Shown piece by piece: positions 1 to 50,473 of a DNA stretch of 64,000 nucleotides. Within the stretch, counting starts at the first letter, position 1. Every line of letters starts with the position of its first letter. The notes under the pieces are model-generated. The model worked only from the letters and a program-made list of their open reading frames with translations, searched no databases and was not told the origin of the DNA. Source of the DNA: Clostridia bacterium (GTDB lineage Bacteria; Bacillota; Clostridia; Oscillospirales; Acutalibacteraceae). The stretch is taken from NCBI GenBank assembly GCA_017415025.1, contig JAFQJH010000007.1, positions 1 through 64,000 on the forward strand. Reading direction: 5' to 3'. Both the position numbers and the translations under genes were made by a program.

Positions 1-1094
1 TTCAGGAAAGTGATGAGCGAACATTTATTAATCACACCGATGCGCCGTATGAAGATAGTTTTTTAACTCCCATAAGAAGCCTGAGTGACGTTATTGAAGT
101 TCATAAGCGAGAGCTGGGCGATACCATTATCCACGGTAACGGCTTGTGGGCAATGGATTTATGGGCGAGGGGATGGCTGGATGATTCGGCAATATGGGAA
201 AACCTCGGAAAGCTGTCGAATCTGTATCAGGCATATCAGAACGGGTACGGTCAGGCATCTCGGTTCGATGTGGCACTTGTTGTAGATGAATATTCGCTTC
301 ACCGCATGGCAAATCAAGGACCTGTGGGCAATGAATTGCTGGGCGAGATGCAGCTTAATCTCTATCACGCAGGACTCTCAACTTGCTATGTTCAGCTTAA
401 AGATGTGCTTGCGGGACGTGTTGACGATGCAAAACTGTATATCATCACATCTGCATTTGATATGACGGATGAGCAGATAGAACAGCTTCAGACAGCACTT
501 CATAAAGACGGCAAGACAACACTCTTTATGTATAATTTCGGAAGCATGACCACTCAGCAGGCTGAAGCACTTACGGGTATGGAATTCAAGGTAAAGAAAT
601 TACAATCCAAAACCGGAATAAAAATGATAAAGCAGTCTGCCGTTCCGGGTCTGATCAGCGATAATCATACTGCGCTTATCTCCCGTGCTATGAAGGTTGT
701 CGGCGGACAGACCGAGACTCTCGGTAAATATTCCGACGGCTCTGTCGGCTTTGCAATCAACAGGCAGAAAGACTATACCACTATTTATTACGGTGATTCG
801 CTGATTTCAGTCAACAATCTGAAAGCCATTGCACGTGCTTGCGGAATCCATGTTTATTCCGATTCAGAGGATGTGCTGATGGCAAATCAGAATATGGTGG
901 TATTCCACGCTGTCACGGCAGGGGAGAAGACCGTCACCTTTGAAGGTAAGACTGATGTATGGGACTACTTTAATAATAAATGGTATACAGATGTGGATTC
1001 AGTCACATTCTCTGCTCAAATCGGCGAAACAAAATATCTGTTCTACGGCGATAAAGAAGAGATAGAAAATTGGAGTCTGCCGATTTACGGATAA
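1..1094 (+). CDS. Glycoside hydrolase-like protein, C-terminal part (cut by window edge)
   Basis: The reading frame is open from base 3 and has no start inside the window, so this is the C-terminal ~363 residues of a longer protein. The first part ends with a pattern seen at the end of glycosidase TIM barrels (GLWAMDLW). The stretch after it (DVALVVDEYSLHRM, then alternating strands and helices) resembles the glutamine-amidotransferase-like trimerisation domain of GH42-type beta-galactosidases, and a small beta domain closes the protein. Family assignment is inferred from fold-level resemblance; the active site lies outside the window. A hairpin terminator follows at 1141-1170. Confidence 0.55.
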   Translation, partial: QESDERTFINHTDAPYEDSFLTPIRSLSDVIEVHKRELGDTIIHGNGLWAMDLWARGWLDDSAIWENLGKLSNLYQAYQNGYGQASRFDVALVVDEYSLHRMANQGPVGNELLGEMQLNLYHAGLSTCYVQLKDVLAGRVDDAKLYIITSAFDMTDEQIEQLQTALHKDGKTTLFMYNFGSMTTQQAEALTGMEFKVKKLQSKTGIKMIKQSAVPGLISDNHTALISRAMKVVGGQTETLGKYSDGSVGFAINRQKDYTTIYYGDSLISVNNLKAIARACGIHVYSDSEDVLMANQNMVVFHAVTAGEKTVTFEGKTDVWDYFNNKWYTDVDSVTFSAQIGETKYLFYGDKEEIENWSLPIYG

Positions 1095-13894: not shown

Positions 13895-14752
13895 ATGTTT
13901 TTACAAAAAATCTGGGCAATCATTACCTTACCTCTTTTGCTTTTATCAATGCTCACAACTCCCGTAGCGCACGATACGGCGACGGCTGACCTTGTTTCGA
14001 CCCACAATTTTGTGTTCGAAAAGGCACTTCTTATGGGTCAGGGCATCACAACGGACGGTGAGTATTATTACACAAGCGGCTCAATCACGGCGCTGAATCT
14101 TACCGCGCTTGCAAAATTCACCGTTGAGGATATGACTATGGTTGACAGTCACGTTAATCCGCTTCCCGATGAATGTACCGACCGCGGAAACAACCACATC
14201 GGCGGTATCAGCTATTATGACGGCAAAATCTATACACCCGTTGAGGGCGGCGACGTCTGTTACGCGTGCATTGTAGTGTTCGATTGCGAAACCCTCGAGC
14301 CGACAGGCGAGATTTACGACCTGCCGAACGAGATTTATTCTGACGGTGTGCCGTGGTGTGCGGTTGACCCCGATACAGGCTATCTCTACGCTTCAAAATG
14401 GACGGACATCGAAACGATTTACGTTTACGATACGGCGAACGAAATGAAGCTTGTGCGCGAAATCGACCTTAACGGAATGGAAAAAATCCACCGCATCCAG
14501 GGCGGCGAATTCTATAACGGAACGCTTTACCTTTCAGAGGATATCGAGAATAACGGCACAATCAAAAATGTTCTTGCCGTCAATCCGAAAACGGGCAAGG
14601 TTACGCTTGCCGCCGAGCGTGACGTCGGCGGAGACAATATTGAAGCTGAGGGCTTGACCTTCCTGCCCTGTGAAAACGGCGCAGAGATGCACGTGCTCGA
14701 TTACAATAAGATTATCGGCATTGCCGTAAGACATTATAAGGTGAGCTTTTGA
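13895..14752 (+). CDS. Secreted beta-propeller-like protein of unknown function
   Basis: A 285-residue protein with an N-terminal signal-like segment (residues ~4-24). The mature chain has repeated strand-turn patterns (GISYYDGKIYTPVE, DPDTGYLYASKW, GGEFYNGTLYLSED) typical of six- or seven-bladed propellers such as NHL/YncE/SMP-30-like proteins. No catalytic set is recognisable. AAAAGGAG precedes the ATG. It has its own promoter and a long leader with a palindrome, then a strong terminator, so it is a regulated single-gene unit. It may bind a ligand or glycan outside the cell, which is a guess. Confidence 0.6.
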   Translation: MFLQKIWAIITLPLLLLSMLTTPVAHDTATADLVSTHNFVFEKALLMGQGITTDGEYYYTSGSITALNLTALAKFTVEDMTMVDSHVNPLPDECTDRGNNHIGGISYYDGKIYTPVEGGDVCYACIVVFDCETLEPTGEIYDLPNEIYSDGVPWCAVDPDTGYLYASKWTDIETIYVYDTANEMKLVREIDLNGMEKIHRIQGGEFYNGTLYLSEDIENNGTIKNVLAVNPKTGKVTLAAERDVGGDNIEAEGLTFLPCENGAEMHVLDYNKIIGIAVRHYKVSF

Positions 14753-14800: not shown

Positions 14801-14832
14801 AACACCCGCTATCATTTTTGATAGCGGGTGTT
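14801..14832 (+). terminator. Strong terminator after the propeller gene
   Basis: Fourteen-base-pair stem AACACCCGCTATCA/TGATAGCGGGTGTT with a TTTT loop, followed by GCTGTTTTTT. Confidence 0.9.
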
Positions 14833-14903: not shown

Positions 14904-15124
14904 AGTAGCCTTCCCTGAAAGGGAAGGTGCCCGACAGGGCGGATGGGTGGAGCGTAAGCGACCAAAAAGCTCTTTGATTTATCTTGTTTCCCTCGTTGCT
15001 TCGCAACGAACCCCTCAGTCACGACTTCGTCGTGCCAGCTTTTTCTCCGAAAACTGGCACCCTTTTGTCTGCTTCGCAGACATTTCCCCTAACAGGGGAA
15101 TCTCCTTTCAGGGGCGCCTTTATT
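14904..15124. repeat. MITE-like intergenic repeat element
   Basis: A ~220-bp non-coding block made almost entirely of short hairpins: CTTCCCTGAAAGGGAAG, GTTGCTTCGCAAC, CACGACTTCGTCGTG, GTCTGCTTCGCAGAC and TTCCCCTAACAGGGGAA. The two ends are imperfect inverted copies of each other (left GCCTTCCCTGAAAGG; right, reversed, GCGCCCCTGAAAGG). This matches the look of dispersed non-coding repeats in gut Clostridia. It encodes no transposase; if mobile it would depend on one elsewhere. The gene-free stretch 14753-15455 contains a terminator, this element, a probable small RNA and two divergent promoters. Confidence 0.65.
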
Positions 15125-15200
15125 ATGCTCTTTTTTCAATCTAACCGACAAATTAAAATTTGCTATTACTGCTACGGATGCGGATGAAGAGGATGTAAAA

Positions 15201-15345
15201 TCAAAAACCCGACGGACATTATGTTCGTCGGGCTATCTTATCGGCTGGGGCTATCACTGTAAGGTTAAATGTATGGATGAGACATACTGATTCGTTTGTG
15301 TGTATAGCCGCCGATTAAGACCTGTGTTGGTTGATTTCCGTTGTA
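15201..15345 (-). ncRNA. Predicted ~145-nt structured small RNA, family not recognised
   Basis: On the minus strand a TTGCAA-N17-TATAAT promoter (15352-15380) is followed by ~145 nt with no credible ORF, ending in a strong terminator. That terminator is an 11-bp stem at 15208-15232 followed on the minus strand by TTTTTGATTTT. Between them is a long-range stem: AUCGGC-GGCUAU (around 15300-15316) pairs with AUAGCC-CCA-GCCGAU (around 15241-15255), with a 3-nt bulge. It encloses a hairpin GUAUG-UCUCAUC-CAUAC (around 15272-15288). Promoter, fold and terminator in one short unit support an independent RNA gene. It does not match 6S, SRP, tmRNA or RNase P as I know them. Confidence 0.6.
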
Positions 15346-15351
15346 CAAACA

Positions 15352-15380
15352 ATTATAACATCTACAACACGATATTGCAA
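15352..15380 (-). promoter_or_regulatory. Promoter of the predicted small RNA, with overlapping palindrome
   Basis: Minus strand TTGCAA (15375-15380), 17 bp, TATAAT (15352-15357). A perfect 14-bp palindrome GATATTGCAATATC (15371-15384) covers the -35 box. Confidence 0.7.
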
Positions 15381-15408
15381 TATCAATAACGCTTTTTATC
15401 AAATATTT

Positions 15409-15436
15409 TTGACCTATTTATGGGTTAAAATATGAT
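15409..15436 (+). promoter_or_regulatory. Promoter of the xre gene at 15456
   Basis: TTGACC (15409-15414), 16 bp, TATGAT (15431-15436); divergent from the small-RNA promoter. The leader is very short. Confidence 0.65.
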
Positions 15437-15455
15437 AAAAGGTTGGTGACGTGTA

Positions 15456-15767
15456 ATGGAAGAAAGAGATTTTGCGTTAAGACTTGCACAGCTTCGAGAG
15501 AACAAGGGTGTTTCCGCCCGAGATATGAGCTTGTCTATGGGACAAAATCCGGGATATATTAATAATATCGAATCGGGCAAATCGCTTCCTTCTTTACCGG
15601 GAGTATTCTATATCTGCGAATTTCTCGGTGTAACTCCGTCAGAGTTTTTTGACCTGGAATCAAAAAATCCGACTAAATTAGATTCGATTATCAAGGACCT
15701 GAAATGTCTTGATGACAAGCAGCTTGAAACAATTGCGTCCCTTGTCAAAGGCTTGGCGCGTAAGTAA
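15456..15767 (+). CDS. XRE-family HTH regulator
   Basis: A 103-residue protein with an N-terminal helix-turn-helix (residues ~10-65; SARDMSLSMGQNPGYINNIESG) and a short helical tail (CLDDKQLETIASLVKGL) that probably dimerises. Similar small regulators occur widely in Clostridia and often control their own region. GGTGACG lies a few bases before the ATG. It is divergent from the predicted small RNA, with a 14-bp palindrome over that RNA's -35 box; regulation of the RNA by this protein is therefore plausible but unproven. Confidence 0.85.
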   Translation: MEERDFALRLAQLRENKGVSARDMSLSMGQNPGYINNIESGKSLPSLPGVFYICEFLGVTPSEFFDLESKNPTKLDSIIKDLKCLDDKQLETIASLVKGLARK

Positions 15768-37466: not shown

Positions 37467-37580
37467 GCGAAGTTGTGAAACAACTTCGCAATGAAATACG
37501 ACCTTTCGGTCGTGTGAAATGTTGCTTTCGCAGCGCGAAATATCGTCTGCGACGATATGAAATTTTTGCTTGCGCAAAAG
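37467..37580. repeat. Array of five short hairpins joined by GAAAT linkers
   Basis: Starting directly after the stop codon: GCGAAGTTGT..ACAACTTCGC (37467-37489), ACGACC-TTTC-GGTCGT (37498-37513), GTTGC-TTTC-GCAGC (37521-37534), ATCGTC-TGC-GACGAT (37542-37556) and TTTTGC-TT-GCGCAAAA (37564-37579). Most neighbouring hairpins are joined by a TGAAAT-like linker (ATGAAAT, GTGAAAT, GCGAAAT). Each stem has a different sequence, so the linker and the hairpin rhythm are what repeat. Confidence 0.75.
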
Positions 37581-42069: not shown

Positions 42070-42089
42070 ATCTAAGCTGTTCTTTATTC

Positions 42090-42230
42090 AAAGACAGCAG
42101 GTGCTTTATGCGTAACGGTTTTTAACCACCTGCCGAGGATAGGAGCATACAAGATTTTCAGGCATAGGTCTGCAAATCCGTAAAATGTATGTTTGTTCCC
42201 TGTCCACGGTTCGTGGGCAGGGATTATTTT
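42090..42230 (+). promoter_or_regulatory. L10 leader (rplJL autoregulatory RNA) with attenuator hairpin
   Basis: Contains the typical L10(L12) binding layout: GACAGCAGGTG pairing with CACCTGCCGAGG around a central hairpin, then GGAGCATACAAG. At 42198-42222 lies a terminator-like stem CCCTGTCCACG/CGTGGGCAGGG followed by ATTATTTT. In characterised Firmicutes this leader lets L10 lower its own synthesis by attenuation. Confidence 0.85.
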
Positions 42231-42260
42231 CGTTATAGCACCGTATCCCATTTTTGAGAG

Positions 42261-50334: not shown

Positions 50335-50389
50335 CTGTTAAAAAGTTCTTTACTTTTGAAAAAACAGGTATATAATAAAAGCATAAATT

Positions 50390-50473
50390 TCAGAGTAGAT
50401 TGTTGTGCGTTAAAAACCGACAGGACGGGGAGTTGTCTGTTGGCATTCAGTATGACAGTCGCATCCCGCTGAA
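50390..50473 (+). ncRNA. Tetrahydrofolate (THF) riboswitch
   Basis: The segment shows the conserved blocks of the THF riboswitch in order: AGAGTAGAT, GCGTTAA, GGACGGGGAGTTGTC, and GCATCCCGCTG at the 3' end closing on the start. It stands directly before folT, the usual target. A TATAAT box lies at 50371-50376. Folate binding is expected to lower folT expression. Confidence 0.85.

Follow-up and report, generated by a model that had tools for sequence, protein, structure and literature searches.

A conserved structured RNA of gut clostridia found beside apparently exchangeable xre genes and SLOG-type reading frames

Introduction

What is encoded between a MITE-like repeat and a divergent xre gene, on a strand where a promoter, a long stem and a terminator seem to line up, and what could such a gene be for? 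The question arises in the assembly of a Clostridia bacterium (Acutalibacteraceae; GCA_017415025.1), on contig JAFQJH010000007.1, positions 1 to 64,000; this whole stretch of 64,000 nucleotides is referred to here as the window. A first-pass annotation had proposed that the site holds an orphan small RNA gene with promoter, fold and terminator of its own, belonging to a family that it did not recognize.

The RNA gene and its flanks

On the minus strand from 15380 to 15203, a promoter-like site is succeeded by a long stem with bulges and then by a strong terminator, and no minus-strand open reading frame of at least 60 aa overlaps 15201-15384. The proposed promoter is present, with TTGCAA at 15380-15375, a 17-nt spacer and TATAAT at 15357-15352 preceded by a TG extension (10/12 matches), and its -35 hexamer lies inside the palindrome GATATTGCAATATC (15371-15384). 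Judged from the -10, transcription would start at about 15346-15344 and the RNA would carry a 5' tail (15324-15345), which tracks xre and not the RNA when sequences are compared across loci. Taken alone, the window promoter is weak evidence because it is one of 7 such sites in 1.2 kb, the number in shuffles being 2.6 ± 1.9. The window RNA folds with a minimum free energy of -42.3 kcal/mol against -27.8 ± 3.6 in shuffles (z -4.0; 0/200 as good). What places the element beyond chance is that the same element stands at 27 other loci with covariation.

The long-range stem pairs as had been described (AUCGGC..GGCUAU with AUAGCC-CCA-GCCGAU), and it is closed by an outer helix that the first-pass annotation did not list. 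From the outside inwards, P1 consists of UCUU (15317-15320) and AAGA (15236-15239), P2 of AUCGGCG (15309-15315, its last G unpaired here) and GCCGAU (15240-15245), and P3 of GCUAU (15304-15308) and AUAGC (15250-15254), all on the minus strand and all placed by the covariation alignment, with the fold also supporting the 5' strand of P1. An unpaired ACACACA follows at 15297-15303. The inner 5-bp hairpin GUAUG/CAUAC (15271-15287) is likewise found in the fold, and it belongs to the variable apical region, not to the conserved part. The intrinsic terminator occupies 15203-15233, with a stem of 11 pairs (15232-15208) and a U-tract, and is seen in the fold, the terminator scan and the covariation alignment.

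Both neighbours are where they were said to be. The divergent xre gene (15456-15767, plus strand) encodes 103 aa matching HTH_19/HTH_3 in Pfam and has a promoter-like site of its own, TTGACC-16-TATGAT, at 15409-15436 on the plus strand. On the other side, the edge of the MITE-like repeat (14905-15125, about 220 bp) lies 78 nt beyond the RNA. This repeat has at least 40 matches in its own 2.09-Mb genome, itself and partial copies counted (40 of 54 candidates scored), and seven further near full-length copies are 93-96% identical.

Distribution of the family

The element belongs to a conserved family of structured RNAs in gut clostridia that is absent from Rfam 15. Searched over the element at the gathering cut-off, Rfam 15 returns no match, the three matches in the window being other elements, which agrees with the earlier failure to recognize a family; its best sub-threshold match is AaHKsRNA41, which scores 19.3 bits against a cut-off of 97, mainly through the terminator hairpin. 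Eight homologous loci, searched against Rfam, also gave no match.

Searching 98 genomes by plain DNA similarity brought up two genuine relatives besides the window, L002 and L004, each beside a homologue of the divergent xre; L003, L005 and L006, from the same initial search, look like chance matches. A protein search with the XRE, which hit 4/18 genomes of the genus at E<=1e-12 and 46/398 of the family at E<=1e-22, led to further RNA copies. Covariance models were then built, one from 10 copies and another from 15. These find the RNA in 12/398 genomes of the family at E<=1e-7, its own included (33 at E<=0.001), in 6/18 of the genus (G013 and G005 through the weak L095 and L077 only, at about 40-43 bits), and in 7/394 of the order at E<=1e-5, where four other families account for five of the seven. 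In the class, 2/391 genomes match, both within the order, for a set whose share from outside the order is not given. In addition, one exact pattern occurs in 11 named records among GTDB contigs, mostly hindgut Clostridia MAGs of goat, sheep and deer. The idea of a phage or plasmid element was rejected: two exact patterns had 0 occurrences in viral contigs, and the RNA plus SLOG DNA of L015 was unmatched in plasmids and phages.

Unless another set is named, the counts below refer to 28 loci at E<=5e-7, with the window locus as L007 and a second copy in the same genome as L072 (G000:C2:81970-82094). The set leaves out weaker family hits (about 25-31 bits), which are probably terminator hairpins for the most part, as well as L039 (28.8 bits), L099 and L101 (cut by contig ends), L122 (judged not to be the RNA), and duplicate names of the same places (L103, L105, L107, L109, L042-L053 and L078-L089).

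A conserved core with covariation

Across the family the core runs in a fixed order: P1 (UCUU/AAGA), a bulged A, a variable and covarying P2, a small internal loop, and P3, mostly GCUAU/AUAGC. Beyond P3 come the single-stranded ACACA and an apical region that ranges from 16 to 96 nt, and the terminator begins two nucleotides past P1. In the 28-locus alignment (27 distinct rows), two-sided changes occur at 23/26 pairs and 95.5% of cells are paired; 0/500 shuffles match it on any of five measures, and slid-partner controls pair 29-41%. The 15-sequence alignment has two-sided changes at 14/26 pairs and 95.0% of cells paired, and 0/500 shuffles reach these values or the covariation score, while 160/500 reach the number of further pair types. 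The shuffles do not preserve relatedness among the sequences, and the counts of alignments A3 and A4 lean towards the modelled structure, to which both were fitted and which had been set manually for the first model. Within P2, the pair of columns 21/164 does not form in 13/27 rows, and L094 does not fold into the core.

A check of the stem in relatives had been suggested, and there it is kept with covariation; homologues and compensatory changes thus back the proposed RNA gene, complete with promoter, fold and terminator. The promoter also gains from comparison, since the best promoter score within 130 nt is at least 9/12 at 26/28 loci, against 12.5 ± 2.4 of 28 (maximum 19) in 200 dinucleotide shuffles, and the TTGCAA hexamer itself precedes the RNA at L014, L015, L018, L019, L073, L090, L092 and L094 as well.

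A leader peptide was also considered. Many copies read AUG ACC GCU AUA CAC AC (MTAIHT), and the AUG is lost in L007, L009, L010, L072, L076 and L093; no Shine-Dalgarno sequence was seen, frame ends vary, and the idea was rejected by reading the sequences alone.

An apparently exchangeable xre and a SLOG-type reading frame

The label "orphan" survives in part. No SLOG gene stands behind the window RNA, whereas behind the same RNA at 17/28 loci a small SLOG/YpsA-like reading frame, of nucleotide-binding type, starts about 14-28 nt past the end of the model match, and a divergent, repressor-like xre lies opposite at 23/28, 119-161 nt away, so that xre is probably part of the unit. At the remaining loci, L073, L093, L095, L096 and L077, xre was not found. 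The SLOG-type GH[RK] motif lies within 46 nt behind the terminator at the 17 loci, of which 8 carry RNAs that are near copies of one another. By eye, the frames of L091 and L093 look broken and that of L073 shortened, and that of L014 is cut by the contig end; at L094 a small secreted-type gene comes first behind the RNA and a SLOG-type gene further on.

The xre genes are of several kinds. Homologues of the window XRE, 53-89% identical, adjoin the RNA at other loci, and six XRE proteins of other types, together with that of L009, all score above the cut-off for Pfam HTH families, with mutual identity among several types of only 19-28%. Where xre differs, similarity between loci starts at the RNA (L098 against L100, 1..542; L091 against L018, 8..562; L100 against L105 from 1, where the contig stops at 235). 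Where SLOG is missing, similarity stops at the terminator (L100 against L074, -516..152).

Distances give the same partition. Among the 11 loci with all three parts, the RNA core correlates with SLOG (Mantel r 0.71, p 0.0002; 0.57, p 0.011 for 7 dereplicated loci) and less with XRE (0.43, p 0.009; 0.16, p 0.21), and SLOG and XRE show little or no relation to each other (0.23, p 0.057; -0.07, p 0.51); this set leaves out L091 and L014 (short SLOG), L102 and L108 (cut xre), and L073, L093 and L094. On these distances RNA and SLOG act like partners and XRE like an exchangeable addition, with the caveat that the RNA also lies closer to SLOG on the DNA. SLOG-type genes divergent from xre but lacking the RNA are common among the loci inspected, and SLOG therefore does not need the RNA.

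The RNA in turn occurs without SLOG. Seven xre-linked loci, L007 (the window), L008, L009, L010, L020, L072 and L074, are of this kind; their RNAs have 102/111 core cells paired and, taken alone, show 45 two-sided differences against 12.0 in shuffles (0/1000). Behind nine SLOG-less RNAs no convincing SLOG remnant was found (best E 0.055), and within 1.2 kb of the window RNA neither a SLOG gene nor a convincing remnant (best E 0.35). Both xre and SLOG are missing at L095 and L077, and L096 breaks off 20 nt past the RNA.

These last three loci also form a second RNA subfamily without xre (L095:2326-2451, L096:21-148, L077:2457-2583), with CUAUCACACAC in two of the three and a common apical sequence GCAUUGUCCG(A/C)AAGGAUU. 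At L095, a candidate gene read as hisZ begins 274 nt behind the RNA.

The downstream proteins

The proteins behind the RNA resemble YpsA-like SLOG proteins by Pfam. Among six proteins compared with PF06908 (YpsA), L019 (27.9 bits) and L034 (29.7) exceed the cut-off of 27.7, L015, L029 and L033 fall below it, and L018 has no match. Since the xre-SLOG pairs that supplied L033 and L034 lack the RNA, L019 is the only one of four RNA-linked proteins tested that passes. NCBIfam gave no match for four SLOG-type proteins, PADLOC no good match for two downstream proteins (best ShosA, E 0.0047), and a PDB sequence search a single match of E 0.36, for L015; an AlphaFold model of a SLOG-type protein had a pLDDT of 42.6, too poor for structure search. 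By eye, the N-terminal half is near-constant between L015, L102 and L104 on one side and L099, L100, L106 and L108 on the other, and the two sets have two alternative C-terminal halves, as if recombined.

Papers on the superfamily, as far as their available text goes, describe YpsA overproduction as disturbing B. subtilis cell division (PMC6459960) and SLOG relatives as sensing or processing nucleotide signals in immunity (PMC9503650), and mention no RNA element, which sets the present loci apart. By analogy, such an effect on cell division would suit a SLOG gene that is tightly held.

How the RNA might act

The arrangement leads us to lean, with modest confidence, towards the RNA being the regulatory part of an exchangeable xre-RNA-SLOG module, in which termination is the default and SLOG is expressed by read-through. 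In such a module, XRE would repress the divergent sigma-70 promoter; once the promoter opens, transcription would by default end at the terminator and release an RNA of about 145 nt, and a minority of read-through, or some unspecified trigger, would give SLOG expression. The RNA would thereby restrain SLOG in cis through the terminator, and perhaps also in trans.

Predicted folds bear on how termination might work. Folded from the predicted start at 26 loci, the terminator has a mean probability of at least 0.77 in 25 (L094 0.05) and the core of at least 0.56 in 25 (L094 0.01), so the two are modelled side by side and not as alternatives in which an antiterminator would exclude the terminator. 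When the nascent RNA of the same loci is folded, the 5' strand of the terminator pairs upstream with a mean probability of 0.00 to 0.62, and no common partner was seen. Termination therefore looks like the default in these models. A second AUAGC copy, located ahead of the terminator, that might pair with the GCUAU of P3 as an antiterminator was rejected: the copy varies between rows (AUAAC, AGAGC, AUUGC), without a common partner.

A ligand-sensing attenuator of SLOG genes, that is, an orphan riboswitch, would also explain a structured leader and terminator followed within about 28 nt by a reading frame at 17/28 loci, and it would fit the constancy of the P3/ACACA core. Yet the nascent folds of the 26 loci contain no conserved antiterminator, copies without SLOG are kept, and the apical region shrinks to as little as 16 nt, and we regard such a switch as improbable. 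The modular reading has a difficulty of its own here, in that a pure leader function does not account for an RNA kept without SLOG at the seven xre-linked loci and, at L095, without xre too.

The same retention invites the thought of a free-standing, trans-acting small RNA under XRE control, with SLOG as a passenger and ACACA or the 5' tail pairing with mRNAs. Promoter, fold and terminator are kept at the seven SLOG-less xre-linked loci, beside several xre types and with covariation of their own; the standalone L095 and L096 have promoters (TTGACA-17-TATAAT and TTGACA-17-TAGAAT) whose -10 lies only 7-8 nt before the element, so that the RNA would start at the element; and CUAUACACA is invariant in the 10-sequence alignment, which together with the 28-locus rows backs the conserved unpaired ACACACA. 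Against this, exact copies of the 11-nt complement of CUAUACACACA are confined, in the genome of the window (83.6% completeness), to its two RNA genes, and RNA type tracks SLOG type. Pairing with the xre start region beats shuffles in just 2/26 comparisons (L007 5' tail, 6/200; L072 ACACA, 4/200), 4 of the 26 being void through misplaced start regions at L008 and L009, and the L007 pairing is not seen at close relatives. We hold this reading to be a tentative one, rather less than likely. Two specific targets were dropped outright: the xre mRNA, as antisense pairing with it is not conserved, and any exact antisense target of the ACACA motif, as the genome has none outside RNA genes.

For the window itself, the modular reading has a further consequence. 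Its RNA is best read as that of an xre-RNA-SLOG module that outlived the SLOG gene, a former SLOG being supposed from the relatives, although the missing gene is itself best read as either lost or never gained. With SLOG absent, free RNA and xre would remain, the RNA being trans-active or a relic that has not yet decayed. That it is a decaying leader relic, functionless in this genome, seems unlikely to us. Neither RNA copy of the genome adjoins SLOG, a repeat with at least 40 genome matches ends 78 nt beyond the RNA, and L017 looks further decayed, with RNA and SLOG start lost (by eye). The window RNA, in contrast, is intact in its promoter, in 15/16 core pairs and in 10/10 scored terminator pairs, and its P2 has two-sided changes relative to SLOG-linked copies.

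The window's genome also contains L111 (G000:C18:64-282), a SLOG-type fragment at a contig edge whose upstream part is unassembled.

Comparison with known systems

A close likeness is to AbiF-RCd22 of C. difficile, which the available text of its report describes as a SigA promoter, an ncRNA of up to 132 nt and a Rho-independent terminator, with RACE showing read-through into the gene and the RNA acting in cis and in trans (PMC12373285). At the present loci, too, a gene behind the RNA and terminator would be reached by read-through; the order promoter-RNA-terminator-gene is seen here with a SLOG-type frame, a putative effector, at 17/28 loci, and the window locus has no gene behind. The differences are that the C. 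difficile effector is Abi_2/AbiF and not SLOG, that there are two abiF motifs, and that "xre" has 0 occurrences in the text of that report so far as it was available (PMC12373285). Up to E 10, a search with the window element does not return the abiF RNA motif (RF03085).

Type III toxin-antitoxin systems (ToxIN) similarly place an RNA, a Rho-independent terminator and a protein gene under one promoter, according to excerpts of PMC5086642. They differ in that no tandem repeat is found in the window at 15100-15460 at score 30, and in that the downstream proteins here are SLOG-like, not endoribonuclease-like. A bolder version of the modular reading would nevertheless make the RNA a non-repeat antitoxin that binds a SLOG effector and holds it in check, the effector gene lying past the terminator. 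An exchangeable XRE would serve as the switch of this mobile defence-type islet, and the SLOG-less copies, the window's among them, would be free antitoxin or anti-addiction RNAs. We consider this a speculative proposal and probably wrong; were it true, a SLOG protein would be the basis of a module under RNA control.

The Brt RNAs associated with Trp regulators in Bartonella offer a different comparison. In the available text they are structured RNAs of 194-203 nt with a terminator-like 3' end beside XRE-type HTH genes, proposed as both small RNA and cis switch and described as Bartonella-specific (PMC5387305). Their HTH gene lies downstream in tandem, whereas here the gene downstream is of SLOG type and xre, instead of being co-oriented behind the RNA, is divergent at 23/28 loci, no xre having been found at the remaining 5.

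An RNA with a terminator before an effector-type gene is a known kind of arrangement, and its combination with SLOG and xre looks new. No published description of the RNA family was found in the literature, supplements being outside the search; excerpts of one survey of human microbiomes list 100 candidate RNAs located close to HTH-XRE genes (PMC8040213), and the RNA may have been detected earlier among them. The family adds a covariation-supported RNA of gut clostridia linked to SLOG-type genes. RNA-terminator-effector units have been described for a few effectors, as the accessible parts of two reports indicate (PMC12373285, PMC5086642), and a SLOG version with a swappable XRE offers a direct test of whether such a layout generally silences effectors.

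Other elements in the window

Behind the open reading frame at 13895-14752, an inverted repeat of 14 pairs with a 4-nt loop (14801-14832) resembles a terminator on the plus strand. The window also contains, by Rfam, the Gut-1 RNA (RF01706), a small RNA family, at 37489-37568 (62.9 bits), and, above their gathering scores, a ribosomal protein L10 leader (RF00557) at 42070-42237 and a THF riboswitch (RF01831) at 50389-50473.
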